Shown one piece after another: positions 14,453-22,905 of a stretch of 64,000 nucleotides of DNA. The translations under genes and the position numbers were made by a program. Source of the DNA: Terriglobales bacterium (lineage in GTDB: Bacteria > Acidobacteriota > Terriglobia > Bryobacterales > Bryobacteraceae); the NCBI GenBank assembly GCA_027485675.1, contig JAIXQP010000007.1, forward strand, positions 248,001 to 312,000. Direction: 5' to 3'. The notes under the pieces were generated by a model that saw nothing but the letters and a program-made list of their open reading frames with translations, had not been told where the DNA came from and did not search any database. The first letter of the stretch is position 1, and each line of letters opens with the position of its first letter.

Positions 14453-14511
14453 AATCTCCGCACATTATGCGGAGATTGTACCGTATAATCTCCGCATGGA
14501 GCGCGGAGATT
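14453..14511 (+). promoter_or_regulatory. two identical palindromic boxes at the fic start
   Basis: AATCTCCGC-N7-GCGGAGATT occurs at 14453-14477 and again at 14487-14511, with the same 9-bp arms and the same 7-nt spacing. A TATAAT-like -10 (14484-14489) lies at the edge of the second box, which ends 4 nt before the ATG. A related half-site (GCGGAGAAT, 14435-14443) lies upstream. The arrangement indicates cooperative autoregulation by a dimeric DNA-binding protein. Confidence 0.7.
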
Positions 14512-14515
14512 GAGA

Positions 14516-15622
14516 ATGTATATCCATCAATTGGAGGATTGGCCGCAGTTCCGGTGGGATCAGGAACGGGTGGCGAATTCCTTGGCCGCCGTGCGGCATG
14601 AGCAGGGGCGATTGATTGGCAGGATGGAGGCGCTGGGATTTCCGTTGCGCCAGGAGGCGGTGCTGCAGGCATTGACGGAAGATGCGGTGAAGACGAGCGA
14701 GATTGAGGGCGAGAAACTTGATCGGGGACAGGTTCGCTCGGCACTGGCCCGCCGGATGGGGATCGATATTGGCGGGTTACGACCGGCGGACCGGAATGTG
14801 GAAGGCGTCGTGGAGATGCTGCTGGATGCCACCGTCCGCTATGACCAGCCGGTGACGGCGGAGCGGCTGTGGGCCTGGCAGGCGAGTTTGTTTCCGACGG
14901 GGCGAAGCGGCCTGGCATCGGTTGGGGTGGGACGCTGGCGGGACGACGCCGGGGGGCCGATGCAGGTGGTTTCGGGTCCGCTGGGGCGGGAGCGCGTCCA
15001 TTACGAGGCGCCGGGGGCGGCGCGGGTGGAGGGGGAGATGCAGCAGTTTCTCGCCTGGTTGAACGGGGCGCCGGCGATGGACCTGGTGCTGCGGGCGGCG
15101 CTGGCCCATTTGTGGTTTGTGACGGTGCATCCGTTTGAGGACGGCAATGGACGCGTGGCGCGGGCGTTGGCGGATTTGATGCTGGCGCGATCGGAACGGA
15201 GCCCGCAACGGTTCTATAGTATGTCAGCGCAGATTCGGCGGGAACGCGAGACGTACTACAGCTTTCTGGAGCGGACGCAGCGGGGTGATCTGGACGTGAC
15301 GGCGTGGATGGAGTGGTTTCTGGACTGCCTGGGGCGGGCGATTGCGGGGGCTCATGAGGAGGTGGCGGCGACTTTGCGGAAGGCGAGTTTTTGGGAATCC
15401 TTGGCGGGGGCCCCGCTGAATGAGCGGCAGCGGCTGATGGTGAACCGTTTGCTGGATGGGTTTGCGGGGAAGTTGACGACGTCGAAATGGGCGTTGTTGA
15501 TGAAGTGTTCGCAGGATACGGCGCACCGGGATGTGCAGCAGTTGGTGGGGATGGGGGTTTTGGCGCGGGGGCCAGAGGGTGGGCGGAGTACGAGCTATGT
15601 GCTCGTGGGCGAGAGGACCTAG
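14516..15622 (+). CDS. Fic-family protein with DUF4172 N-terminus
   Basis: A 368-residue Fic protein. The DUF4172 N-terminus (YIHQLEDWPQFRWD) is followed by SEIEGEKL, a possible inhibitory helix of the S/T-x-x-x-E-G type, and by the Fic core motif HPFEDGNGRVARALADL near residue 205. The HPFxDGNGR catalytic His and the NGR for nucleotide phosphates are intact. Fic enzymes mostly transfer AMP to proteins. The C-terminal 80 residues look like a winged helix (KWALLMKCSQDTAHRDVQQL), which could bind the palindromes at its own start. ATG 14516 was taken instead of the in-frame TTG at 14510. Confidence 0.9.
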   Translation: MYIHQLEDWPQFRWDQERVANSLAAVRHEQGRLIGRMEALGFPLRQEAVLQALTEDAVKTSEIEGEKLDRGQVRSALARRMGIDIGGLRPADRNVEGVVEMLLDATVRYDQPVTAERLWAWQASLFPTGRSGLASVGVGRWRDDAGGPMQVVSGPLGRERVHYEAPGAARVEGEMQQFLAWLNGAPAMDLVLRAALAHLWFVTVHPFEDGNGRVARALADLMLARSERSPQRFYSMSAQIRRERETYYSFLERTQRGDLDVTAWMEWFLDCLGRAIAGAHEEVAATLRKASFWESLAGAPLNERQRLMVNRLLDGFAGKLTTSKWALLMKCSQDTAHRDVQQLVGMGVLARGPEGGRSTSYVLVGERT

Positions 15623-15912: not shown

Positions 15913-16386
15913 GTGCATCGACTGAGCTCCAGTTTTGTGCTGGCCTACGATGGATGCGACCAGCGCGTCGGCGAACGGATCTTGGGTGGCGAGGCGCTAC
16001 AACAAAGCGCGAACGAGTACGACTGGCTTGGGCCGGGAAGCTACTTCTGGGAATCGAATCCTGGACGTGCCCTAGAATTTGCTCGCGAGACGCAAAGACG
16101 AAAGGCCTTGGAACTCGGAAAGCCATTCGTTGTGGGAGCAGTGATCGATTTGGGGCTTTGTCTGGACTTGACCACCGCCGGCGGAATGGAGTGGGTGAAG
16201 ACGGCTCACGACCGCCTCGTGAAGCGTACCAAGAAAGCCGGCTGGGAACTTCCCAAGAACAGTGTCGACGGACTGCGGCGTAACTTGGACTGTGCTGTAT
16301 TGAAGTACCTGCACGAGATTCTCCGGGAAGAAGGGCAGCCGCCAATCGATACGGTGAAGGGAATTTTCGTGGAAGGCGAACCGTAG
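15913..16386 (+). CDS. ADP-ribosyltransferase-like protein (putative toxin)
   Basis: A 157-residue protein with GTG start. It has LAYDGCDQRVGERILGGE at the N-terminus, YDWLGPGSYFWESNPGRA, and a conserved C-terminal part (LDCAVLKYLHE; IDTVKGIFVEGE). This resembles a family of small toxin-like proteins with a PARP/DUF3990-type ART fold, usually reading YHGCD at the first motif. If that memory is right, the usual His is Asp here (GAT for CAT), which would weaken NAD binding. The small gene 3 nt upstream is the likely partner. The fold assignment is inference from motif layout. Confidence 0.5.
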   Translation: MHRLSSSFVLAYDGCDQRVGERILGGEALQQSANEYDWLGPGSYFWESNPGRALEFARETQRRKALELGKPFVVGAVIDLGLCLDLTTAGGMEWVKTAHDRLVKRTKKAGWELPKNSVDGLRRNLDCAVLKYLHEILREEGQPPIDTVKGIFVEGEP

Positions 16387-16565
16387 TATCCCGGGTCAGG
16401 CTTTTCGACCAAGACCCACACCCAGATTGCGGTGCGCAATCCCCTCTGCATCAAGGGTGTGTTTCGTGTTCCCAAAGACCAACTACGCAGCCTTTCGCCC
16501 AACCAGCCGACCGCATAAGTTGGAGGCACCCCTTTTCATTCGAAGACCGTATACGAATCGTGGCC
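16387..16565. other. intergenic stretch without a supported gene
   Basis: No frame here shows family resemblance on either strand, and no strong hairpin was seen. It separates the ADP-ribosyltransferase-like pair from the decayed relative of the 17.8-kb ORF. Confidence 0.4.
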
Positions 16566-16763
16566 ATCCATTTCGTCGCCGGTGCGGCGCTTGGTCAACT
16601 TGTTCGCCGGGCGCGGCCGAACGTCTTCAAGAAAGGCGGCTCCGCCACCGACGAGCTCTGGATGGTTTTCGAGGCTTCACACTTCGGCGGACGCGCACTT
16701 GGCCTCCCACTGGCGCGTACGGCGGAGATGTATCCCAAGCACCTCAATACCTCTACGATGTAG
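16566..16763 (-). pseudogene. degenerate relative of the 17.8-kb ORF
   Basis: Read on the minus strand, this stretch contains SLENHPELVGGGAAFLED, closely like QPENHPELVHGGAAFIGK in the frame at 17731-17958. The upstream part (IHLRRTRQW) also aligns with the other copy (IRRIRQHK). An in-frame stop separates the two parts here. It is a decayed relative of an unrecognised small protein. Confidence 0.4.
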
Positions 16764-16882
16764 GCCGTTCGGTGGGGGGCGGGGCGTTGAACGGACTGCC
16801 TTGCTTGTTTCGGTATCGCCCAAGGCGCCGGTTGACAGCGTTGGCTGCAAAGGCTACTCTCGGGCTTGACGAGGCACATCGC

Positions 16883-17143
16883 ATGAACGTTCATCTCACC
16901 CCTGAACTTGAGCAGCTCGTCCAGAGCCGGGTGGAGAGTGGTCGCTATGGCTCCGCTGGTGAGGTGGTGCGGGACGCGCTGCGGTTGCTGGCTGATCGTG
17001 ATGAGTTGCTGGAACGACGGAAGCAGGAGCTCCATTCGCAGATCGCGCAAGGCCTTGATTCCCTGCAGCGGGGCGAAGGTGTTGATGGTGGTGAGTTCTT
17101 TGCCGAGCTTGCACGCGAAGAGGCCAATCTTTTGGCTCCATGA
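16883..17143 (+). CDS. parD: ParD-type antitoxin
   Basis: An 86-residue ribbon-helix-helix antitoxin. The N-terminal MNVHLTPELEQLVQSRVES is the RHH strand and first helix, and GRYGSAGEVVRDALRLL is the typical second helix. The charged C-terminal tail (FFAELAREE) would wrap the toxin. The stop overlaps the parE start (ATGA). As in the family it should bind its own promoter. A longer upstream in-frame extension has no homology and was rejected. Confidence 0.85.
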   Translation: MNVHLTPELEQLVQSRVESGRYGSAGEVVRDALRLLADRDELLERRKQELHSQIAQGLDSLQRGEGVDGGEFFAELAREEANLLAP

Positions 17144-17430
17144 GGCGATTTCGGTTTTCGCTGGAAGCGGCCAGTGACATCAGAGAGATTTGGCGCCACA
17201 TAGCGGCAGATCGCGCTGCCGCTGCCCGAAAAGTTCGCTTAGATCTCTTTGCGGCTTGCCAGCGCCTGGCCGAGAATCCGCTAATTGGCCACGAGCGCAA
17301 GGACTTGACTGACCAACCAGTTCTATTCTGGCCGGTCGGCTCCAATCCGATCATTTACGATCCAAGCTGCAAGCCACTGGCTATTGTTCGAGTGGTACAC
17401 GGTGCCTGTGATATCTCGAGCTTTCTTTGA
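17140..17430 (+). CDS. parE: ParE/RelE-family toxin
   Basis: A 96-residue ParE-like toxin: RFSLEAASDIREIWRHIA at the N-terminus and PLIGHERKDL followed by IIYDPSCKPLAIVRVVHG at the C-terminus. ParE proteins poison gyrase; RelE relatives cut mRNA, and assignment between the two is uncertain. It overlaps parD by 4 nt. No truncation is seen, so this module looks intact, unlike most neighbours. Confidence 0.82.
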   Translation: MRRFRFSLEAASDIREIWRHIAADRAAAARKVRLDLFAACQRLAENPLIGHERKDLTDQPVLFWPVGSNPIIYDPSCKPLAIVRVVHGACDISSFL

Positions 17431-17730: not shown

Positions 17731-17958
17731 TCAGCTCGAGTGCCGATCCAATGCGTTTTCGAATCGTTCATCGCGCTCAGAACGGGTTTTTCCGATGAAG
17801 GCAGCGCCACCATGGACCAGTTCTGGATGGTTTTCCGGCTGCCAAACGCCAGCGGACCTGTGAAGTGCCTTGTGCTGGCGAATGCGTCTAATCTCTTTCG
17901 AGAGCCCATTGACGATGTAATCGGGATCGTTGATCGTGGTCAATTCAGCCGCATCCAT
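17731..17958 (-). CDS. small ORF following the Phd antitoxin
   Basis: A possible 75-residue protein starting at ATG 17958, overlapping the Phd frame end by 14 nt. That coupling is typical of antitoxin-toxin pairs. It has DPDYIVNGLSKEIRRIRQHK and QPENHPELVHGGAAFIGK. The protein family was not recognised. A second, degenerate version at 16.6 kb shows that the sequence is a recurring element. It could be the partner of the Phd protein, or a decayed remnant. Confidence 0.35.
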   Translation of the reverse strand: MDAAELTTINDPDYIVNGLSKEIRRIRQHKALHRSAGVWQPENHPELVHGGAAFIGKTRSERDERFENALDRHSS

Positions 17959-18235
17959 CGAATTTGAGGTCGCGGCGTACGTCAATGCCTGCCTGCACAT
18001 CCTTGGCGGGGTCTTCATCGGGCACCGGCGCATCACCCAGCTTTGCTTCGTCAGCTTTTGCTGGCACGATGCCCTCGCTCAGCTTGCGGCCGGGGCGGGC
18101 GGATGCGAAAGGTTCCAGCACGGCAATGGGGCGGTGGTCCTGCTCGATGACGATCTCGATTCCTTGCTGTACCTGGGCCAGCGCGGCGTGAAAATCGCTA
18201 GCTAGCTCGGCCACGCTCATGCGGACGGTTGCCAT
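17945..18235 (-). CDS. Phd/YefM-type antitoxin domain (internal start)
   Basis: A 96-residue Phd/YefM-like antitoxin: MATVRMSVAELASDFHAALA, then GIEIVIEQDHRPIAVLEP, the usual strand-helix DNA-binding layout with a disordered acidic tail (PVPDEDPAKDVQAGID). An internal ATG at 18235 would give this protein alone, but the frame is also continuous with darG upstream. No VapC-type toxin follows; a small unrecognised ORF overlaps its end. Confidence 0.7.
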   Translation of the reverse strand: MATVRMSVAELASDFHAALAQVQQGIEIVIEQDHRPIAVLEPFASARPGRKLSEGIVPAKADEAKLGDAPVPDEDPAKDVQAGIDVRRDLKFDGCG

Positions 18236-19429
18236 GGCTCCAGTATGACGGGCGCTTCCCTTCCTTGTCTTCCTCCGCCTCCGATGCCTTCCGCAGTTCG
18301 TCGCCGGGGGGAGAGACGAGTCGGGAGCACCCTGACTGAGGGCACTTGGGGAGTTTTGGGTTTCCTGCACTCTGTTCAGTTGGCCCAAGCCAAGGTCAAT
18401 CAGACGATCGGTGAACAGTTTCTGTTTGCGTTGGGCGGCAGCGGGGCCGGCGGGCCAGTGGGCCAGGCCGGCGCGGATTCCTTCGCGAGTGGGAGGACAG
18501 TTCTCCCTGACGATCAGCCAATCGAGCGTGGCCAGGAGCTCGAGCCCTAGGGGCGACTGAAAGCCTTCGATGACCTCTTCGGCGCGATCGAGGACGCGAC
18601 GCAGGGGCAGGGCCGATTCCTGTTTCAGGTAGAGGTCGATATAGGGGCGCCGCTCCTCGTCAAACCAGATGGTATCGGACGGGCCGGCATCGCTCAGCCG
18701 CTTGTTGCAATGCAGGTAGCTGCCGTCGAGAGCATCCAAGAGGTGCCGCAAGCGATCCGAGTATGGGCCGTACTTGTCGGCGGCGAACCGGAGATCGAGC
18801 GGGTCGGCGACTTGCAACGACTGGATTGCTCGCTCCAGAAACCAGGCGATCTTCTGCACTTCGAGATAGGTACATTCGATCCCGAGTATGGAGTAGCGGC
18901 GAACCATTTCCGCAATCAGGACACGGGCGGGGGTGAGCTTGAGAACTCCGCTGCGCTTCGTTACGTTTTGGTACTTCTCGGTTGGCTCGTAGACCCAGAC
19001 GTCGACATCGGGCAGGGTTCCCAGAACCTTCTCGATTTCGGGGCGGGCGATGGCCCAATCGAGGCCGCCATTGCCACAGCCCAAGGGAGGGAGCGCGATG
19101 GAACGGATCTGCCGGTCCTCGATGACGCGGCGGAGATCCTGCAAGCCGTCGATGACCCACTGGAGCTGGGAGGGGCTGCGCCAATGCTGTTTGGTGGGAA
19201 AGTTGATCAGGAACCGGGGCCCATCGAGAGCGTCCCGTTCCGTGACGAACATGCAGCCGACCTGCACGTTGCCTTGCTTGACGGCGGCGGCGTAGGCGGC
19301 GAAGTTGCCGGGGAAGGCTTCTTTGAACATGAGCGCGATTCCTTTACCCATGACGCCGACCGTGTTGAAGGTGTTCACTAGGGCCTCGGTGGGAGCGTCG
19401 AGCAAATTGCCTGTGAGCAAACGTAGCAT
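17945..19429 (-). CDS. darG: DarG-like macrodomain antitoxin, read-through fusion to Phd
   Basis: One open frame of 494 residues. Residues 1-150 are a macrodomain (LRLLTGNLLDAPTEALVN; NTVGVMGKGIALMFK; LINFPTKQHWR with the catalytic-region Lys; LPPLGCGNGGLDW). The next 200 residues (PARVLIAEMVRRY to HWPAGPAAAQRKQKL) match the DarG C-terminal domain that holds DarT. DarG removes ADP-ribose from thymidine in DNA. DarG homology stops near 18360. About 40 low-complexity residues follow, then a Phd antitoxin domain. The ATG at 19429 overlaps the darT stop (TAATG). Loss of a stop codon is more likely than a designed fusion. Confidence 0.85.
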   Translation of the reverse strand: MLRLLTGNLLDAPTEALVNTFNTVGVMGKGIALMFKEAFPGNFAAYAAAVKQGNVQVGCMFVTERDALDGPRFLINFPTKQHWRSPSQLQWVIDGLQDLRRVIEDRQIRSIALPPLGCGNGGLDWAIARPEIEKVLGTLPDVDVWVYEPTEKYQNVTKRSGVLKLTPARVLIAEMVRRYSILGIECTYLEVQKIAWFLERAIQSLQVADPLDLRFAADKYGPYSDRLRHLLDALDGSYLHCNKRLSDAGPSDTIWFDEERRPYIDLYLKQESALPLRRVLDRAEEVIEGFQSPLGLELLATLDWLIVRENCPPTREGIRAGLAHWPAGPAAAQRKQKLFTDRLIDLGLGQLNRVQETQNSPSALSQGAPDSSLPPATNCGRHRRRRKTRKGSARHTGAMATVRMSVAELASDFHAALAQVQQGIEIVIEQDHRPIAVLEPFASARPGRKLSEGIVPAKADEAKLGDAPVPDEDPAKDVQAGIDVRRDLKFDGCG

Positions 19430-19728
19430 TAGACATACCACTGTGGCTGGGCGGCCGCGTTGCAGTCAACGCCCCGGTCTTTGATCTGGTGTTGGATATC
19501 GGCCAGGATCTCCTGCTTGAAACAGCAAACGCCTTTTACGCCGCGCAGAGGCACGTGCTTCCACAGCAGCGCCTCGGCTTGATAGCGCTCTTTCTTGGCG
19601 GGATCTTCGGAATCGTGGCGGAAATCGCCGCTCTGAAAGAGGGACCAATCGATGGGTTGCAGGTCTTCCAGGCGAGTGAAGTATTCGGCTATTTGGGGAT
19701 CGATCTGGACGCCGTGCTGCACCCTTGA
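19429..19728 (-). pseudogene. darT: darT toxin, N-terminal half missing
   Basis: About 98 residues match the C-terminal half of DarT (DUF4433), a DNA thymidine ADP-ribosyltransferase: YFTRLEDLQPIDWSLF, KKERYQAEALLWKHVPL with the QAE catalytic Glu, and the terminal PQWYV. Family members are about 210 residues; the first half with the NAD-binding Arg is absent. The sequence upstream of 19728 has no DarT resemblance and leads to the divergent nuclease gene. The toxin should be inactive, leaving darG as an orphan antitoxin. Confidence 0.8.
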
Positions 19729-19823
19729 CGACGCAAAGTGAGCTCGCGAGCGGCCTCCTCTTAGATCATGTAGGCGGTTGCGACATTCCTGCGATAATTT
19801 CGATAAAGAACACTGTAAGAGCC

Positions 19824-20687
19824 ATGTCTGACCTAACACAACTCGAAAAGAAAAAGCTAGAAACAGTCCTTGGAATGAGTAGCGGATACGTCCTCGACTT
19901 TGGGGACACCACGTTTGCCGCGTTCATTTTCGAGAGTACGGGGCTGGATATTGACGAGGACAAGTATCACGAAAACGGACGCTCAAAAGCCAAACGCCTA
20001 CGCACCTTCTGGCAAAGAGAACCCAACCATGTTGTGGGAAAGTTGCTTAATGACCTCCTCGACTATACCGAGGATAAAGGCGCTCAAGCGGAAGTGTGCC
20101 GCCTTATCGTTCGCCGCCTTCTCAGCAGCAACTCTCCGGCGCCACAAAAGCAGCACTCTCCTACTTCGACTTCATTCCCTTCGATTGACCACAAACATTA
20201 CGATCAATTGTCTGCGTCGTTAAAGGACCTACTTGAACTTGCGCCAAGCCATCGCGGATTCGCCTTCGAGCGGTTCCTGGATGATACATTCGCAACGTTT
20301 AATCTCTCCCCCCGCAGGTCATTTCGGCTCACTGGCGAGCAGATAGACGGCAGCTTTCATCTTGCAAACGAAACCTACTTGGTCGAGGCAAAATGGCAAG
20401 GCCAGAAAATTGGAAATCGAGAGCTTCAAGGTTTTGCGGGTACCGTGCGCACCAAATCCAGCTGGGCGCGTGGTTTGTTCGTGAGTTATTCGGGCTTCAG
20501 CGAAGAAGGTCTGGCCGCGTTCGCCCGGGGCGATGCAACGCGCATCATCTGCCTGGACGGTTTTGAACTCTGGCAGGTAATGAACCACAAACTTGATCTC
20601 TGCGAAGTGCTTGCGCTCAAAACCAGACGCGCTGCTGAAACGGGCAGAGCTCATGTGCCCGTCAGAGAACTCTATCCGCTTTTGTGA
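19824..20687 (+). CDS. Mrr-like restriction endonuclease with N-terminal Abi-like domain
   Basis: A 287-residue protein in two parts. Residues 1-100 (KKKLETVLGMSSGYVLDFGD; SKAKRLRTFWQREPNHVVGK) form a helical domain often found at the front of abortive-infection and restriction proteins. Residues 135-270 are an Mrr-type PD-(D/E)xK fold: GFAFERFLDDTF, then EQIDGSF (Asp) and YLVEAKWQG (E-x-K). RGLFVSYSGFSEEGLAAF is the family C-terminal block. Mrr enzymes cut modified DNA. No methylase lies nearby, which fits a modification-dependent enzyme. The ATG at 19824 gives the full domain. Confidence 0.8.
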   Translation: MSDLTQLEKKKLETVLGMSSGYVLDFGDTTFAAFIFESTGLDIDEDKYHENGRSKAKRLRTFWQREPNHVVGKLLNDLLDYTEDKGAQAEVCRLIVRRLLSSNSPAPQKQHSPTSTSFPSIDHKHYDQLSASLKDLLELAPSHRGFAFERFLDDTFATFNLSPRRSFRLTGEQIDGSFHLANETYLVEAKWQGQKIGNRELQGFAGTVRTKSSWARGLFVSYSGFSEEGLAAFARGDATRIICLDGFELWQVMNHKLDLCEVLALKTRRAAETGRAHVPVRELYPLL

Positions 20688-21053
20688 CGACCCCACTCCC
20701 GATCTAAACTTGATTCTGGTGCCTCGATCCCTTGAACCGATCCCTCGGCCAACTGGTCGATATCATCGTTGGGGTCAGCACAGTTCATGCCGGCTAACCT
20801 AGGTCTCGGAATCCACCTTCAGCACTACCGCATGACCTTGTGCTTGCGGTCGAACAGGTATGGCAAGTATTGACGCTGGAGAATCCGGCCAACAACGTAC
20901 CTGCCTCGTCGACCAGCCCGGTATGCAGCAGCCTGTTAGGCTCGCCCAGCTGGCCCTCGCAGCAGGCGCGGCCGGAGTACACCGGCGATGAGTCCACCCC
21001 TTGATTCGGCCACGACTTGATCGAAGGACATCTCTGTGTTATCGTCTGCTTGG
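20688..21053. other. intergenic stretch before the retron RNA
   Basis: About 365 bases without a supported gene. A leftward frame holds DRKHKV in a transposase-like context, but it is too short and interrupted to call. Confidence 0.4.
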
Positions 21054-21181
21054 CTCACCCGGTAGATTTTGTGCCACGCTTCGTGGCATGTGAAGTAAAC
21101 GTTAGAAGCACTGCTGTCCTCGCCGTGGGGTCGTTGCTGTATGCCCCATGAGCCTGCCTACGCAAAAGAGTGCCGGGTGAG
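21054..21181 (+). ncRNA. candidate retron msr-msd RNA
   Basis: CTCACCCGG (21054-21062) and CCGGGTGAG (21173-21181) are inverted 9-mers, the expected a1/a2 ends, and a2 ends 17 nt before the reverse transcriptase start. Just inside a1 a 7-bp hairpin TGCCACG-CTT-CGTGGCA (21072-21088) looks like an msr stem. GCACT (21108-21112) and AGTGC (21169-21173) could close the msd, enclosing about 66 nt, with TGGGG/CCCCA (21126-21130 with 21144-21148) inside. The layout matches a retron RNA; base-level boundaries are inferred. Confidence 0.6.
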
Positions 21182-21198
21182 TCATCAAGGCGGTCTCA

Positions 21199-22905
21199 AT
21201 GTCGAAGCTTCACTCGCTTAAGTTGGCAACTTGCCTCGGCGACGTCGCCAAACTCCTTGGCTTCACGCCTAGCGGACTCAGCTATATTCTCTTTCGGCAG
21301 CCTGCCACTGAAAAATACAAGTCATTCCAAATCCCAAAGCGGTGCGGTGGAACTCGCGACATCATGGCTCCCAACGCAAAGCTGAAGCTGCTTCAGCAGA
21401 AACTCTCGGAACTACTGCAAGACTGCGCTGAGGAAATCGACGCCACGGCGAAGCGCGAGGATCAAATAGCGCATGGCTTTAAGCGCAATCGTTCCATCAT
21501 CTCCAATGCTCGGTGTCACCGGAACCGGCGATTCGTTTTCAACTTAGACTTGGCCGATTTCTTCCCTTCGATCAATTTTGGTCGAGTAAGGGGGTTTTTC
21601 ATACGCGACAGGAGCTTCGAACTTCATCCGGCAGCGGCCACCGTCATCGCGCAAATAGCGTCTCATGAAAACGCTCTTCCGCAGGGCGCTCCCTGTTCGC
21701 CTGTAATTTCGAATTTAATCGCACGCATATTGGACATCCATCTCGTTCGGCTTGCTTCAGCAAACGATTGCACCTACTCACGATACGCAGATGACTTAAC
21801 GTTCTCTACTAACAAGAAGGATTTCCCTGAGAATATAGCTTACAAGAATGGAGACTCTTGGAGACCTGGCTCGGAACTAGACCGGCTTATCTTGCTCTCT
21901 GGCTTTCGTGTCAATCACGGCAAGACATCGATGCAATTCCGGACCTCCCGCCAAGTCGTAACCGGCCTTGTCGTTAACAAGAAAGTTAATGTTCCAATCG
22001 AGTATAGGCGCACAACCAGAGCGATGGTGCATAGCTTCCTAACAACGGGACGTTATGAGACATATGGGTCTAATAAGAAGGCTATTGATCCGTCCATGGA
22101 GAAGCAGCCCGGCACTCCGGAGCAGTTGCACGGGATGCTCGGATTCATCGACAGCGTCGATTTGTTCAACAAGAGACAACATCCACCCAAGCCGGAGCGA
22201 TCAGTTCCAAGCAGCAACGAACTGATGTACCGGCGATTCTTGCTCTACAAGGATCTCTACGCCGCAAATCGTCCAGTCGTCATCTGCGAAGGCGAGACTG
22301 ACAACATATACCTCTCTCGAGCTCTGCGGAAGCTTGCCGCTAAGTTTCCTCAGTTGGTTGAGCTGACACCGGAGGGAAAGCCCCAGGCGAAGATTCGGCT
22401 CTACAGATATCGCCATACCAGCACGTCGCGAGTACTAGGCCTGAATGACGGCGGATCGGCGGTACTCGCTTCTTTCATACAGACGTACCGCCGCGAGACA
22501 GAACGATTCAAGGGCCCAGGCCAGTATCATCCAGTGATCATCCTGTTTGACAATGATTCAGGAGCTAAGCCAATAAGAAGAATCATTTCAGACATCACAC
22601 AATCGAAACTACTACCCGGGGATTCATTCAGACATATCACCAAGAATCTCTACGCCGTTGCGACCCCGTTATTGGAAGGCAAGGAAGAATCCTGCATAGA
22701 GGACTTCTTCGACGAGTCCGTTAAGTCAAGACTTCTCGATGGAAAATTTTTCTCCAGAGCCGATAGCTTTGACACGGAGAACTCTTACGGAAAGAAAATA
22801 TTCGCAAACTCCATCGTTGTCCCGAATTCAGATACAATAAACTTTACTGGTTTTGAGCCAATTTTGGGCCGATTCGTTGAGGTGCTAACCGCACATTATC
22901 GCTAG
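21199..22905 (+). CDS. retron reverse transcriptase fused to TOPRIM domain
   Basis: A 568-residue protein. The N-terminal 330 residues are a retron-type reverse transcriptase: NLDLADFFPSINFGRV, LPQGAPCSPVISNLI, catalytic YSRYADDLTFS, and the retron-specific VTG (RQVVTGLVVN). Residues 340-560 contain a TOPRIM-like fold with VVICEGETDNIYL (Glu) and VIILFDNDSG (D-x-D), the arrangement of Ec67-type retrons, where the fused domain is the effector. Retrons make msDNA and protect against phage by abortive infection. Codon use is less GC-rich than in core genes, which suggests transfer. Confidence 0.9.
   Translation: MSKLHSLKLATCLGDVAKLLGFTPSGLSYILFRQPATEKYKSFQIPKRCGGTRDIMAPNAKLKLLQQKLSELLQDCAEEIDATAKREDQIAHGFKRNRSIISNARCHRNRRFVFNLDLADFFPSINFGRVRGFFIRDRSFELHPAAATVIAQIASHENALPQGAPCSPVISNLIARILDIHLVRLASANDCTYSRYADDLTFSTNKKDFPENIAYKNGDSWRPGSELDRLILLSGFRVNHGKTSMQFRTSRQVVTGLVVNKKVNVPIEYRRTTRAMVHSFLTTGRYETYGSNKKAIDPSMEKQPGTPEQLHGMLGFIDSVDLFNKRQHPPKPERSVPSSNELMYRRFLLYKDLYAANRPVVICEGETDNIYLSRALRKLAAKFPQLVELTPEGKPQAKIRLYRYRHTSTSRVLGLNDGGSAVLASFIQTYRRETERFKGPGQYHPVIILFDNDSGAKPIRRIISDITQSKLLPGDSFRHITKNLYAVATPLLEGKEESCIEDFFDESVKSRLLDGKFFSRADSFDTENSYGKKIFANSIVVPNSDTINFTGFEPILGRFVEVLTAHYR

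Follow-up and report, generated by a model that had tools for sequence, protein, structure and literature searches.

Retrons are bacterial anti-phage devices in which a small RNA-linked DNA serves as a tripwire for an effector. The Ec67 retron family is best studied in Escherichia coli. In Eco2 (Ec67; PDB 9lm3, 9i2f, 9s1f) the reverse transcriptase (RT) and the TOPRIM domain are joined in one protein. According to the 2025 Eco2 study (PMC12405507), this protein and its msDNA form a self-inhibited trimer that is held by the msr RNA; upon activation the TOPRIM part, an RNase, is released. Mutations in denB allow escape and suggest that a nuclease is the trigger; because DenB is toxic, the authors lacked a direct assay (PMC12405507). 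Activated Eco2 cuts tRNA, as described in a passage of a second study (PMC12956279).

The 64,000-nucleotide stretch of acidobacterial DNA analysed here (the window) has an RT-TOPRIM gene and an upstream RNA that together look like a complete Ec67-like retron, legible from its probable promoter through the stop codon and with msDNA ends that can be predicted. What the sequence itself shows is the gene with its motifs, the RNA with its covariation, and a match to the fold of Eco2. The original prediction of an RT-TOPRIM retron of the Ec67 kind is borne out by the protein family scores, the closest structures, the RT tree, a covariance model that excluded the window and the covariation of paired bases, and the locus is placed in that family because of these five. 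The family is already known, and the novelty of this retron lies mainly in its coming from an acidobacterium. A literature search with most subscription papers outside its range returned only titles on other subjects, and a prior mention is possible; passage searches for the string "acidobacteri" in PMC12548924 and PMC8934634 gave no match.

The RT-TOPRIM protein

The RT-TOPRIM gene occupies 21199-22905 of the forward strand. It starts at ATG 21199, 5 nt after a probable ribosome-binding site (AAGGCGG, 21187-21193, forward strand), and encodes 568 amino acids, with the RT at about residues 1-320 and the TOPRIM at about 355-568. The NCBIfam model retron_Ec67_fus ("retron Ec67 family RNA-directed DNA polymerase/endonuclease") matches residues 4-564 with 684.4 bits against a curated cut-off of 450 bits, and the best of 52 PADLOC families is RT-Toprim_I-C at 727.3 bits. 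The top PDB chains by sequence are those of E. coli Eco2/Ec67 (residues 2-567, E 3.8e-111). Pfam detected the RT domain, and the TOPRIM part appeared below cut-off only. The PADLOC families RT-TIR (XII) and RT-protease (XI) have an RT domain like that of the window protein (360 and 335 bits), but their effector domains are different and the match covers the RT part only, to residues 382 and 320. The G+C content of the gene is 0.50 compared with 0.62 for the window, which fits a horizontal arrival.

As originally read, the RT carries the motifs YADD (residues 196-199) and VTG (254-256), and the TOPRIM carries E364 and D451-x-D453. NAxxH (103-107) and D368 are also present. NAxxH, YADD and VTG are named as conserved retron RT motifs in the Eco2 study (PMC12405507). 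In an alignment with Eco2, all 39 relatives share residues Y196, D198, D199, H107, E364, D368, D451 and D453 with the window protein, A104 of NAxxH is kept in 37 of the 39, and the TOPRIM E, D and DxD residues are the same in Eco2 as well. The same study also names S513, E515 and K562 as catalytic in Eco2 (PMC12405507). The equivalent of E515 is kept in all 39 relatives; S513 is C in the window protein, at a position that varies among relatives; and residue 562 of the Eco2 PDB chain, as numbered in the alignment, is D where the paper names K562. Some RNA and trimer contacts of Eco2 are missing from the window protein. Besides S513, three contact residues are changed (R184 to H, K383 to S and K418 to S), and the trimer-interface residue R332 aligns to a gap in the window protein and in 34 of the 39 relatives.

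An AlphaFold2 model of RT-TOPRIM, built from 25 aligned sequences, had a mean pLDDT of 88.1 and a pTM of 0.55. The first five Foldseek matches to this model were five Eco2 chains. Superposition over the whole chain gave an rmsd of ~19 Å and a TM of 0.47, so the domain placement relative to Eco2 either differs or is badly predicted, and an Eco2-like arrangement of the predicted domains is not confirmed by the model.

A quick RT tree was made from 109 RT rows, with DGR RTs left out. The window protein falls within a 17-row set (SH-aLRT 96) consisting mostly of acidobacterial RT-TOPRIM retrons, and this set sits inside a 52-row group that includes Eco2 (support 82). The remaining RTs from the window's family, including the second RT of the same genome, fall outside the 52-row group. 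Long branches were flagged, hence the deep joins of this tree are not claimed. Placement in an RT phylogeny, proposed at the start as a check, groups the protein with RT-TOPRIM retrons among the RTs sampled.

The msr-msd RNA

The whole msr-msd spans 21052-21184 of the forward strand, upstream of the RT-TOPRIM gene. The inverted ends noticed at the outset are the a1 arm (21052-21064) and the a2 arm (21171-21183), which pair without a break over 13 positions, two of the pairs being G-T. The predicted branching G, the equivalent of Eco2 rG15 by a numbering checked on Eco2, is at 21065. It lies in an AGA that, like the GAGT, does not vary among the 49 RNAs. The msr stem-loop (21070-21090) has 8 pairs (21071-21078/21082-21089) plus a U-G pair (21070/21090) and matches the Eco2 stem-loop 20-42 in position; the hairpin originally counted at 7 bp is real and slightly longer. 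The window and Eco2 share the order a1, AGA with the branching G, one stem-loop, msd, GAGT and a2.

The msd borders were set by a rule that takes the G following the msr tail as the first nucleotide and the A of GAGT as the last. When checked on the Eco2 RNA, taken from E. coli S10 and numbered as in PMC12405507, the rule returned 67 nt, which is the published length. The same rule gives 69 nt for the window, so that 21101-21169 is the template of a predicted 69-nt msDNA, and the range over 49 sequences is 61-84 nt. The original prediction had a closed block of about 66 nt at 21108-21173; the msd predicted by homology has other borders. On the forward strand, near the end of the template, lies TGC (21112-21114, YGC in the family) and near the start of reverse transcription GCA (21162-21164, GCR plus variants in the family); the first site and the GC of the second are conserved in the 49 RNAs.

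The RNA is more stable than expected by chance. The region 21040-21200 folds at -68.4 kcal/mol against a shuffled mean of -50.4 (z -4.45), and 0 of 200 dinucleotide shuffles fold as low. The segment 21052-21185 also beats all dinucleotide shuffles (z -4.52). The stable fold that had been anticipated is thus a property of the msr-msd as a whole.

At the gathering score the RNA is unmatched by any Rfam family. Up to E 10 on 20680-21260 there is no retron family, and a single Antizyme_FSE match (E 9.7, opposite strand) was dismissed as chance. The two covariance models built in the analysis, R1 and R2, recognize the RNA. R2 was made from 33 RT-TOPRIM loci, leaving out the window and its 15 nearest relatives, and one of its 33 seeds (L012) belongs to the window's 17-row tree set. 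It found a single match in the window, at 21051-21185 (52.7 bits, E 1.8e-11), and also matched all 15 left-out relatives. The covariance search proposed at the start was therefore negative with Rfam and positive with the purpose-built model. Judged by its parts, fold and covariation in sequence, 21052-21184 is a genuine msr-msd.

The same element was placed upstream of 48 relatives, which together with the window gave a 49-sequence alignment. The first two pattern scripts had anchors that were too strict and missed many loci; relaxed anchors were used for the alignment. Rows removed before counting were L017 (upstream sequence equal to L016), L026 (a near-copy of L024), L084 and L085 (equal to L005 and L006) and L043, whose upstream sequence is absent. 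The alignment leaves out L050-L082; of seven of these searched with R2, L050 and L070 match and L055, L059, L063, L069 and L072 do not. Ten more loci came from plasmids or phages; upstream sequence is present in nine of these, and the script recovered the RNA in 8 of the nine. It missed L125, where parts of the RNA are legible by eye, and L127 begins at the start of its record and has no upstream sequence.

Both conserved helices, a1/a2 and the msr stem-loop, covary over the 49 sequences, as the original prediction had called for. The structure for the tests was taken from the window's fold, and the controls were 500 shuffles and slid versions. In the 49-sequence set, 90.0% of 1029 cells pair compared with 76.0% shuffled and at most 40.8% slid, and the covariation score is 0.606 compared with 0.312 and at most 0.150. 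Two of the five measures were matched by some shuffles: both-side pair changes in 7 of 500 and further pair types in 18 of 500. The 33-sequence set pairs in 98.1% with a covariation score of 0.622, and its further pair types were reached by 315 of 500 shuffles. In the 16-sequence set pairing is 88.1% versus 83.9% and the score 0.207 versus 0.128; by eye, five of its rows have an extra a1 base that shifts the outer pairs out of register. The anchors were picked partly on a1/a2 likeness, which biases the a1/a2 counts toward pairing; the stem-loop was unselected.

A probable promoter, weak with four of six positions in each hexamer, lies at 21017-21045 on the forward strand (TTGATC at 21017, 17 nt, TATCGT at 21040). 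A consensus promoter scan did not list this pair. Over the 49 loci, -35-like and -10-like hexamers are enriched at the promoter's distances from the branch site, and the top -35 score fell within a1 itself.

Proposed mechanism and its alternatives

The locus is likely a type I-C (Ec67/Eco2-like) retron with an Eco2-like self-inhibited TOPRIM RNase mechanism. An RNA would be transcribed from the promoter immediately before a1. The RT domain would bind the msr stem-loop and prime DNA on the 2'-OH of G21065, opposite A21169, and the msd would be copied back to about G21101, giving an msDNA of ~69 nt with the RNA still attached. If Eco2 is a guide, RT-TOPRIM would then assemble with the msDNA into a self-inhibited complex. 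Degradation of the msDNA by a phage enzyme would free the TOPRIM, RNA would be cut and phage growth would stop in the infected cell. The 2'-5' link, the oligomer, the RNase activity and the nuclease trigger of the window retron are inferred by carrying them over from Eco2.

This last step is where a different outcome is conceivable. The window retron has only ~36% protein identity to Eco2, a different msd sequence and a host in another phylum, with hosts and phages distant from E. coli, and several of the Eco2 contact residues are changed. In other defence systems the substrate of TOPRIM domains is DNA or tRNA, according to PMC12405507. A genuine retron whose TOPRIM cuts another substrate such as DNA, or whose trigger is something other than a nuclease acting on msDNA, is nevertheless unlikely given that the active-site residues are identical and the match to Eco2 is full-length. 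Decay of the copy, leaving gene and RNA legible and the retron no longer working, is considerably less probable. The locus does adjoin a cut-down darT and an IS66 transposase, and some relatives have decayed (G192 retains a TOPRIM remnant, and the G073 gene is split between frames), but here the 568-codon frame is open, the YADD aspartates and the TOPRIM E, D and DxD residues are kept and a1 and a2 pair over 13 positions. It would be very surprising if the gene encoded another kind of RT, for example one of a group II intron, with a chance inverted repeat upstream. The NCBIfam group II RT model matches weakly, at 51.6 bits, under its curated cut-off of 300 bits, and NAxxH and VTG, the RT tree and the RNA found by the window-free model all speak for a retron. 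No DGR model appears among the PADLOC, Pfam and NCBIfam matches to the protein.

A point against the Eco2-like reading concerns the msd itself. A long msd hairpin is described for Eco2 (PMC12405507), whereas the msd of the window has no hairpin above chance. Folded as DNA it behaves like shuffled sequence (z 0.06 and 0.18 in two runs), so the "closed" character first ascribed to the block is not upheld, and the Eco2 msd is likewise near its shuffles (z 0.12). Over 50 sequences with 300 shuffles the mean z is -0.66; 10 of the sequences fall under -1.64 and no sequence goes under -3. With 100 shuffles, L003 had -3.16 and L006 -3.10. The msd structure across the family is slight overall, with few exceptions. 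A supposed loss of a small msd-start hairpin in the window's group was dropped; at p <= 0.05 a single sequence has such a stem in the set of 16, and a single one in the set of 33.

Conservation follows the ends of the msd. The 50 middle columns hold 0.26 bits of information per column, compared with 1.10 for the msr, 0.82 for the first 18 msd columns and 1.44 for the last 8, and YGC and GCR are the standout conserved sites of the msd. The distal msd of Eco2 is mostly unresolved by cryo-EM and accepts inserts, as stated in passages of PMC12956279. If YGC and GCR are paired as a clamp, the first pair is T-A in 25 RNAs, T-G in 15, T-T in 4, T-C in 4 and C-G in 1; the second is G-C in 49 of 49 and the third C-G in 47 of 49. 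In L123, L124 and L128, inspected by eye, CGC stands opposite a mismatched GCA; in Eco2 the two sites are CGC and GCG. Covariation in the 49 RNAs gave no support for the clamp. A tentative idea, somewhat on the doubtful side, is that the RT-TOPRIM msDNA may be a nearly sequence-free and fold-free single-stranded "fuse" of which only the ends (YGC, GCR) matter, perhaps as a clamp of 2-3 bp. It would sense any attack on single-stranded DNA, not one sequence or hairpin, and the window copy would show this design in Acidobacteriota. According to the 49-RNA alignment, RT-TOPRIM retrons keep a1/a2, AGA, one stem-loop and the msd ends and leave the msd interior free. The kept and free parts suggest where foreign DNA could go in these retrons and make the fuse idea testable.

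Distribution and neighboring genes

The survey of the window's family comprised 200 genomes, among them that of the window itself (G000). Protein matches at E <= 0.001 occur in 59 of them and the RT-TOPRIM gene in six (G000, G025, G067, G073, G117 and G121), that of G073 being split over two frames. R1, applied with strict filters, finds the RNA in the same six genomes and none elsewhere; since all six positives are R1 seeds, the informative part is that none of the other 194 genomes gave an orphan RNA match. Acidobacterial RT-TOPRIM retrons (L003-L008, L010, L035, L040, L047, G025, G067, G117 and G121, the G121 sequence being that of L006, a Bryobacteraceae record) have 48-63% protein identity to the window in the best segment, the same RNA and one tree group. 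As G121 is of the window's family, its shared sequence with L006 makes Bryobacteraceae the probable family of the host. In G192, of the same genus, a TOPRIM remnant (L092:1258-1911) has 44% identity to residues 441-566, and R1 did not find the RNA in that genome. A second retron-like RT of 412 residues is present in G000 itself, on contig C31 (L002:1144-2382). Its best PADLOC families are RT_other and RT_outgroup, relatives of it occur in G004 and G177, both from this genus, and R1 has no match at it.

The retron lies in what looks like an ordinary defence-rich stretch; the E. coli Eco2 copy adjoins phage genes. Upstream is an Mrr-like nuclease gene (19824-20687, forward strand; Pfam Mrr_cat 32.1 bits, cut-off 21). 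ATG 19824 is apparently a better start than the listed TTG 19725, which would overrun the darT remnant. In the latter (19429-19839, reverse strand) the match is confined to positions 114-200 of a DarT model that is 201 positions long, and darG (17945-19441, reverse strand) covers its model in full (NCBIfam 395 bits against a cut-off of 250). The "darTG remnant" of the original prediction is real, the reduced gene being darT. An IS66 transposase is downstream (Pfam).

The Mrr-like nuclease and darTG genes are beside the retron as first noted, but a role as its partners is unsupported. The neighbors of the acidobacterial retrons differ from those of the window, and relatives of the Mrr-like protein or DarG were not found at other retron loci, among ORFs of at least 150 codons outside the window's region and with many flanks short. 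What did turn up in such flanks was a single weak Fic relative, in L009, and a single IS66 relative, in L032. A DNA match in G204, of the same genus, covers the Mrr-like gene at 82% identity and ends there. Inspected by eye, the DarG frame ends in a part that looks like an antitoxin of the Phd/YefM type. The same stretch also has a 157-residue ORF at 15913-16386 (forward strand) with no Pfam or NCBIfam match, lying among defence-type genes, a Fic gene at 14510-15622, and a ParD/ParE-like pair (Pfam) at 16427-17143 and 17140-17430 on the forward strand.
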